DNA of 64,000 bases, taken from NCBI RefSeq assembly GCF_004217185.1, contig NZ_SHKL01000001.1, forward strand, positions 1,572,001 through 1,636,000, written 5' to 3'. This document shows positions 40,500 through 41,816 of the stretch, one piece after another (within the stretch, counting starts at the first letter, position 1; every line of letters starts with the position of its first letter). This DNA is from Pseudonocardia sediminis (lineage in GTDB: Bacteria > Actinomycetota > Actinomycetes > Mycobacteriales > Pseudonocardiaceae). The position numbers and the translations under genes were made by a program. The notes under the pieces were generated by a model. That model did not search any database. It saw only the letters and a program-made list of their open reading frames with translations, and was not told where the DNA came from.

Positions 40500-41816
40500 A
40501 TGGACGCCGGGAACACCGCGTACGTGCTGGGCTGCGCGGCGATGGTCATGCTGATGACGCCGGGGCTGGCGTTCTTCTACGGCGGCATGGTCCAGGCCAA
40601 GAGCGTGCTCAACATGATGATGATGAGCCTGGTCAGCCTCGGCGTGATCGGGCTGATCTGGGTCGTCTTCGGCTTCTCGCTCGCGTTCGGCGACTCGCAC
40701 GCCGGGCTGATCGGCGGGTTCGAGTTCGTCGGGCTCACCCAGACCGGGGCCATGGTCAACGGCGTCCCGGTGCAGGCGTTCGCGATGTTCCAGCTGATGT
40801 TCGCGGTGATCACCGGGGCGCTGGTCTCCGGCGCGATCGCCGACCGGGCCCGGTTCTGGCCGTGGACGCTGTTCGTGGCGGCCTGGACCGTCGTCGTCTA
40901 CATCCCGCTCGCGCACTGGATCTTCGCCTTCGACGACGCCGTCTCGCCGAACGGCGGATGGCTGGCCAACACCCTGGGCGCCCTGGACTTCGCGGGCGGC
41001 ACCGCCGTCGAGATCAACTCCGGCGCGTCGGCCCTGGCGCTGGCCCTGGTGCTGGGCCGCCGCCGCGGCTGGCCGGAGCCGACCCGTCCGCACAACCTCC
41101 CGGCCGTGCTGCTCGGTGCCGGGCTGCTGTGGTTCGGCTGGTTCGGCTTCAACGCCGGCTCCGCACTGGCCGCCGGGGCGACCGCGGCGAACGCGTTCGT
41201 CACCACGATGACCGCCGCCGCGGCGTCGGTGATGGCCTGGCTGGTCCTCGAGCACCGCCTCGACGGCCGCCCGACGAGCCTCGGCGGGGCGTCCGCCGCG
41301 ATCGCCGGGCTGGTCGGCATCACCCCGGCCTGCGGCTACGTCGACACCTGGGGCGCGCTGGTGATCGGCGTGCTGGCCGGTCTGATCTGCCAGCTGGCGA
41401 TCCGCCTGAAGTACCGGCTCGGCTACGACGACTCGCTCGACGTCGTCGCGATCCACGGCATCGGCGGTGTGATCGGCATGCTGGCGCTCGGGTTCTTCGC
41501 CACCACCTCGGTGAACGCCGACGGAGCCGACGGGTTGCTCTACGGTGGCGGCGTCTCCCAGCTCGGCAAGCAGGCGCTGGCCGTCGTCGTCGCGATGGTC
41601 TGGGCGTTCGCGCTCAGCGCCGTACTGGCCTGGGTGATCCGGAAGACGATCGGCTTCCGGGCGCACGCCGACGACGAGTCCGCCGGCATCGACGAGGCCG
41701 AGCACGCGGAGTCGGCGTACGAGTTCACGACCATGCGGACGTCCGGGCGCAGCCCCGGTCTCACCGGGCAGCAGCGCCCGGCCCGCCCCCACGCACGCGA
41801 GGAGGAGTCCCGATGA
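40500..41816 (+). CDS. amtB: Ammonium transporter AmtB (second copy, His to Glu in the pore)
   Basis: 438 residues, clearly paralogous to the copy at 36097-37491. The first pore histidine is replaced by Glu171 ([10 protein letters not shown]), while the second, His319 (VVAIHGIGG), is kept. The same His-to-Glu change is known from fungal Mep1/Mep3 and affects the transport mechanism, so this copy may differ in rate, selectivity or ion coupling. Other family motifs ([25 protein letters not shown]) are intact. The stop overlaps the glnK2 start by 4 bp (ATGA), tighter than in the first unit. Confidence 0.95.

Follow-up and report, generated by a model that had tools for sequence, protein, structure and literature searches.

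Glutamate in place of the first of the two pore histidines has been described in fungal Amts as the only common natural variant (PMC3647058, 2013; this and the other papers are cited here from excerpts). Mep1 and Mep3 have an affinity below and a Vmax above those of Mep2 (PMC4501750), and in oocytes Mep1 is electrogenic and Mep2 electroneutral (PMC7048316). The engineered Escherichia coli variant EcAmtB H168E conducts ammonium and methylammonium, with a current of 22.28 nA against 3.38 nA for the wild type, a Km of 12.87 +/- 7.79 mM against 0.8 +/- 0.1 mM, and no K+ current (PMC9040831). In yeast, H168E gave no growth rescue at 1 mM ammonium after 3 days and did better at lower ammonium, the poor growth being read by the authors as toxic influx (PMC9040831), so results for a single residue placed in a foreign protein may be misleading. 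Wild-type EcAmtB is itself electrogenic, hence the split of the yeast proteins into electroneutral and electrogenic ones need not carry over to bacteria. The discussion of the same paper proposes that the acidic residue hydrates the pore; for single Mep2 variants, deprotonating and channel-like mechanisms are proposed to coexist, and the basis of the differing mechanisms in the family is considered not fully solved (PMC9040831, 2022 mBio). The pore Glu has so far been discussed from fungi and from the engineered E. coli protein; in the literature searched, with most subscription papers outside the scope of the search, we found natural bacterial Glu-Amts nowhere described.

The window analysed here, a stretch of 64,000 nucleotides from Pseudonocardia sediminis, contains the gene order amt1-glnK1-glnD-amt2-glnK2 (Table 1), flanked by ORFs that, recognised by eye, we take to be ftsY and, beyond a small P-loop gene, ffh. 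The order amtB-glnK-glnD is usual in Actinobacteria, and amt1, glnK1 and glnD of the window follow it; the difference lies in a second amt-glnK pair, of the Glu type, placed after glnD. The two transporters are 54% identical (247/456) and the two PII proteins 87% (97/112), and Amt1 and Amt2 are the only PF00909 matches in the 6.6 Mb genome. The first-pass annotation had portrayed two Amt variants with different pore chemistry as run by one locus and one GlnD; of this picture, the different pore residues and the single glnD between the two genes stand, and each amt gene has a glnK of its own. The small P-loop (AAA_33) protein is encoded at positions 42197-42757, between glnK2 and ffh, and recurs in most loci of the genus that were read.

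Table 1. Features of the amt/glnK/glnD locus, in positions of the window.
Feature	Position	Strand	Evidence or remark
GlnR-like box GTAAC-n6-GTAAC upstream of amt1, predicted	35962..35977	+	0 mismatches; scores highest within 250 bp of upstream sequence
Shared box GTTCACGTCCCCGCAAC upstream of amt1	35993..36009	+	the window has just one other match
amt1, His-type ammonium transporter, 464 aa	36097..37491	+	PF00909, TIGR00836
His191 codon of amt1	36667..36669	+	translation
His340 codon of amt1	37114..37116	+	translation
glnK1, PII protein, 112 aa	37497..37835	+	PF00543; 5 bases 3' of amt1
glnD, PII nucleotidyltransferase	37875..40325	+	NF002895 (1029 bits); PF08335, HD domain; start codon uncertain
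Shared box GTTCACGTTCCCGAAAC upstream of amt2	40389..40405	+	second match in the window; best GlnR-like upstream site, score 15
Weaker GlnR-like site GTAGC-n6-GTAAC upstream of amt2, predicted	40411..40426	+	1 mismatch
amt2, Glu-type ammonium transporter, 438 aa	40500..41816	+	PF00909, TIGR00836
GAG codon of Glu171, first twin-His position	41010..41012	+	alignment, translation
Ser174 codon, 3 residues C-terminal of Glu171	41019..41021	+	column-residue tests on trees
CAC codon of His319, second pore His	41454..41456	+	translation; 204/204 aligned Amts
glnK2, PII protein	41813..42151	+	ATG overlaps the amt2 stop codon

Translation and residue count give His191 and His340 in Amt1 and Glu171 and His319 in Amt2, exactly as had been claimed, and the reported codons at the first pore-His site (CAC in amt1, GAG in amt2) are read in the sequence. 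That Glu171 occupies the twin-His position itself is borne out by a phmmer search against PDB sequences (276 bits, query residues 2-409), which aligns it with Glu168 of 2NOW, and His319 with His318; counted along the alignment, chain position 168 of 2NOW corresponds to H168 of EcAmtB, and from its Glu letter and the excerpt of PMC3647058 we take 2NOW to be the engineered H168E structure that has been published. Amt2 scores 404.3 bits with PF00909 (cut-off 23.2) and 439 with TIGR00836 (cut-off 343.3), and Amt1 also lies above both curated cut-offs. Amt2 departs from the strict twin-His motif, with Glu171 for the first His and the second His present; to judge by the whole-length sequence match that establishes its membership, Glu171 is a motif variant within the Amt/Mep/Rh family, as in fungal Mep1/3. 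The Phe gate and the pore-mouth Asp are retained (F101, F217 and D163, equivalent to F107, F215 and D160 of EcAmtB), and in an alignment of 204 Amts the positions of D163, F101, F217 and H319 are invariant in 119/119 Glu rows and 85/85 His rows. The Ser at EcAmtB position 219 is found in Amt2 too but varies in the set, being present in 94 of the 119 Glu rows and 70 of the 85 His rows. No residue other than His or Glu, Asp and Gln included, occurs at the site among the 204 aligned Amts. All 22 Glu-type copies of the genus have the Glu, even where its flanks vary (AVEVN, AVEID), which argues that Glu171 is neither chance nor a base-calling slip. The observation of Glu at the first pore-His position of Amt2 is confirmed.

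Within Pseudonocardia, a Glu-Amt is present in at least 22 of 62 genomes, all of which also carry a His-Amt. The open-site motif identified Glu in 16 of the 62, and reading of the syntenic place added 6 with altered flanks; as the motif misses other flanks and the count leaves aside some divergent additional Amts in the genus, 22/62 is a lower bound. PF00909 matches indicate a single Amt in 23 genomes (by motif, of the His type in 23/23), at least two in 38 (22 of these with Glu) and none in one; Fisher's test of Amt number against Glu gives p = 1.1e-6, a value to be taken as a guide only, since the species are not independent. In 18 of the 22 genomes the Glu copy follows glnD, as it does in the window, with a gap sometimes of up to about 5 kb, while the other four (L237-L240) have the order amtHis-glnK-amtGlu-glnK-glnD. 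Among seven loci without amt2 (L265-L271), four (L266, L267, L269, L270) still have a glnK, placed after glnD and before the P-loop gene or ffh; this looks like a past loss of amt2, although the reverse order of events is possible. A second PII-like ORF follows glnK1 in L241, L242, L243, L245, L247, L251, L264, L265 and L266, where it could partly be an edge of the stop-to-stop reading frames; the window has none. The motif search also repeatedly found, throughout the genus, a gene that is no Amt but has a motif resembling AGG-I/V-x-V-S-I-N (G000:C1:4953697-4953723, L286).

The Glu copy is dispensable, being absent from 40 of the 62 genomes as far as they were read, and this, together with the four glnK genes that seem to have outlived their amt2, would fit a spare duplicate under weak constraint, in which the change from His to Glu would have no function as such. 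We consider such an explanation improbable: Glu is fixed in the copies of the genus, no third residue has appeared at the site, the remaining pore residues are invariant, and the same residue has been reached by at least seven separate changes (see below), each needing two base changes.

A draw of 150 genomes from the family revealed the strict Glu motif in 6, from 3 of 46 genera. An even draw over the phylum (396 genomes) gave 106 open-site matches, namely 94 with His, 5 with Glu and 7 with another residue; the 5 Glu places were verified as Amts and the 94 His places are counted from the motif. The 7 places with neither residue were considered as further site variants and rejected, as none holds an Amt. 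Among 240 genomes from the class of Acidocella, the motif matched in the starting genome only. The scan of 84,980 named genomes returned at least 118 stretches, of which at least 111 are Amts with Glu at the site, belonging by record title to Actinomycetota (at least 88), Pseudomonadota (at least 22) and Candidatus Elulimicrobiota (at least 1); these motif counts overlook Amt copies with other flanks. Seven of the 118 listed stretches were discarded as non-Amt (L038, L046, L058, L091, L117, L123, L126). The names of three MAG records, L015, L019 and L059 (Bifidobacterium breve, Streptomyces griseus), look wrong, and their sequences group with freshwater actinobacterial Glu-Amts. To the question raised at the outset, whether Glu variants are confined to duplicated copies in Actinobacteria, the answer is divided: they are nearly always found beside a His copy, but they extend outside Actinobacteria, as the Pseudomonadota members demonstrate.

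The His-type partner was followed in whole genomes. Fifty of the 118 listed loci were traced to them, and every Amt match in these genomes was read, with a single fragment of some 41 residues left aside. One genome (G199) has no Glu-Amt; the other 49 have exactly one each, accompanied by a His-Amt in 48. The one genome lacking a His-Amt, G183, is a MAG of 3.5 Mb under the name Actinomycetospora, which may be incomplete. In each of 8 further genomes, drawn independently of the scan, one Glu-Amt and at least one His-Amt were found (8/8). By motif only, Glu occurs in 21 of 59 genomes of Gordonia (the genus of G487), with a His partner in 21/21, and for Arthrobacter (the genus of G178) all 13 Glu genomes among the matches listed have His as well. 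The sets overlap (for example, P. endophytica and TRM90224 are in two of them, and Gordonia genomes are shared), so that the counts are not to be summed. In Acidimicrobiaceae and related MAGs (L177 / L178 and others), the Glu-Amt is paired with a very different His-Amt (YSGGYVIH) that is no close duplicate of it. A fixed glnK partner as a general rule for Glu-Amts was ruled out, as glnK lies directly downstream in only 27 of the 86 Glu loci with sufficient flank; the Glu-Amts of Mycobacteriales, Micrococcales and Pseudomonadota are without an adjacent glnK.

The nearly constant presence of a His-type copy could also be explained if the Glu-type protein had a regulatory or sensing role as a subunit, perhaps assembling with the His-type into mixed trimers, and were no independent transporter. 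There is little to recommend this idea, given that the pore residues are complete, that an adjacent glnK is missing in the three groups just named, that engineered EcAmtB H168E conducts (PMC9040831), and that in yeast, according to the excerpted literature, the signaller is Mep2, which is of the His type.

For phylogenetic analysis, 204 of 229 sequences were retained (119 Glu, 85 His; short and identical rows were dropped and six duplicate loci had been removed earlier), with the pore site itself excluded; most of the His rows were taken from genomes in which a Glu-Amt is also present. The resulting tree needs 11 changes at the site, and at least 6 after branches below SH-aLRT 98 are collapsed. 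A smaller tree of 43 rows, obtained after clustering at 70% and the removal of 4 distant His rows, needs 11 changes in its best topology (10-13 in bootstraps), of which at least 7 are forced by well-supported branches. The Glu copies of Arthrobacter and Aurantimicrobium are each sister to a His copy of the same genus (100/100), and the Acetobacterales Glu rows join local His rows (100/99). We take His as the starting state because it predominates, as the trees alone give no direction. It appears from these trees that bacteria made the same His/Glu swap on several occasions, as a rule with a His-type copy present in the same genome, which resembles the situation in yeasts.

Could one ancient Glu lineage, spread by descent and transfer and with no repeated change, account for the same data? 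Several of the Glu clades are deep-branching and rich in members, and a shared origin could have been masked by gene conversion between adjacent copies. However, on the 43-row tree a single clade is rejected both for all Glu rows (p-AU 5.08e-06) and for the 18 actinobacterial ones (p-AU 5.21e-24), and the Arthrobacter and Aurantimicrobium sister pairs speak against it as well. The simple form of this explanation is refuted, and we regard the explanation as a whole as highly implausible.

Residues that change together with the Glu were also sought. In the 204-row tree, the preference for Ser/Cys at position 174 in Glu-Amts and for Ala in His-Amts ranks at the top of 1058 column-residue tests; of 7 independent pairs, 5 to 6 on average show Ser/Cys174 together with Glu. 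On the 43-row tree the association drops to 4.2/7, and positions 375, 287 and 240 are equally good; with at most 7 independent pairs, no single coupling test survives correction. Ser at the corresponding position is also found beside His, in Mep2 and in Amt1 of the window. A coupling of Ser174 to Glu171 is offered as a lead only.

The sequences upstream of the two amt genes contain putative control sites. The word GTTCACGTYCCCGMAAC occurs twice in the window, 87 bases before amt1 and 94 before amt2, against a chance mean of 0.11 per window for a pattern written after both sites were known. Scored against a GlnR-like consensus, upstream regions reach at least 14 in 27/27 ftsY-linked His genes of the genus, in 11 of 17 syntenic Glu genes besides that of the window, in 0/4 Glu genes in the other gene order and in 0/3 unlinked His genes. 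Windows within those genes score at most 13, and the background, amt upstreams included, is 59 of 1139 locus tiles reaching 14 (5.2%). The GlnR-like boxes before both genes make a common nitrogen control of amt1 and amt2 in the window likely, and GlnR would be the regulator of both.

Taken by analogy with the published proteins, Amt2 is probably (we would say about 0.6) a functional transporter of a recurrent Glu-type class, with high flux and lower affinity, working beside the His-type scavenger Amt1. The retention of the second His, the Phe gate and the Asp around a Glu at the His site, the location in a nitrogen-control locus and the possession of its own glnK argue for a transporter, while the absence of the GlnR-like box from 6 of the 17 syntenic loci of the genus and from all 4 loci in the other order argues against this reading. 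The repeated arrival at the same residue and the near-constant His partner also speak for the reading, and the small share of Glu loci with a glnK directly downstream and the genome G183, with its Glu-Amt alone, speak against it. The part of high-flux, lower-affinity partner is assigned from the published kinetics of H168E and of Mep1/Mep3. Following those mutants, the buried acidic residue would hydrate the Amt2 pore, which would then pass more ammonium, part of it as the NH4+ ion, with a lowered affinity; Amt1 would act as the high-affinity scavenger and Amt2 as its high-flux partner. When nitrogen is plentiful, each Amt would be shut by its own GlnK, and GlnD would set the PII state. We propose that the cost of unchecked high flux explains why the Glu copy is an accessory and the His-type one is retained.

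A different benefit can be envisaged, in which the main use of the Glu-type lies in coping with other conditions of pH or ions (pH optimum, K+ competition) and not in flux as such. The optimum is pH 6 for Mep1 and pH 4 for Mep2 (PMC10794816), Mep2 H194E alters the effect on cytosolic pH (PMC7048316), and some carriers are named after acid-living groups, e.g. Acidocella. Nevertheless, other carriers are ordinary soil and freshwater genera (Arthrobacter, Gordonia, Planktophila), and EcAmtB H168E lacks a K+ current (PMC9040831), wherefore we rate this possibility as unlikely, if less so than the spare duplicate or the sensing subunit. Returning to the high-flux partner, we see roughly even chances that it reflects a convergent division of labour across domains, in which bacteria repeatedly made a Mep1/3-like Glu-type and kept it only beside a His-type.

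If this is true, bacteria hold at least seven natural replicate experiments on the division of labour in ammonium uptake, and natural pairs with both types in one PII-controlled locus provide many independent tests of the role of the Glu. Should the rule of the His partner hold, the Glu-type pore would be of use solely as a supplement, a point that matters for how cells balance affinity, flux and ion leak.

Amt2 is a genuine variant of a well-known family, conserved and convergent; what is new is the spread, the repeated origin and the His partner of the bacterial Glu-Amts. With EcAmtB H168E (2NOW) it shares the identical residue at the identical position, with the second His kept; the E. coli protein differs in being an engineered single change, whereas Amt2 is natural and has many other differences. 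With fungal Mep1/Mep3 of S. cerevisiae and C. albicans it has in common the Glu at the first pore His and a His-type paralogue, there Mep2, in the same genome (PMC9040831, PMC7048316), and the residues that characterise the Mep1/Mep3 type are all found: Glu first, the second His kept, and the His paralogue present. The parallel with the His-to-Glu change of Mep1 and Mep3 drawn in the first-pass annotation holds in the alignment and in the excerpts of PMC9040831 and PMC3647058. In ScMep1, known here by description, the position before the second His (His2-1) is also occupied by E (PMC9040831), where Amt2 has AIH. Finally, unlike the fungal proteins, Amt2 is bacterial and tied to glnK and glnD, and the bacterial Glu-Amts and fungal Mep1/3 are likely to have separate origins.
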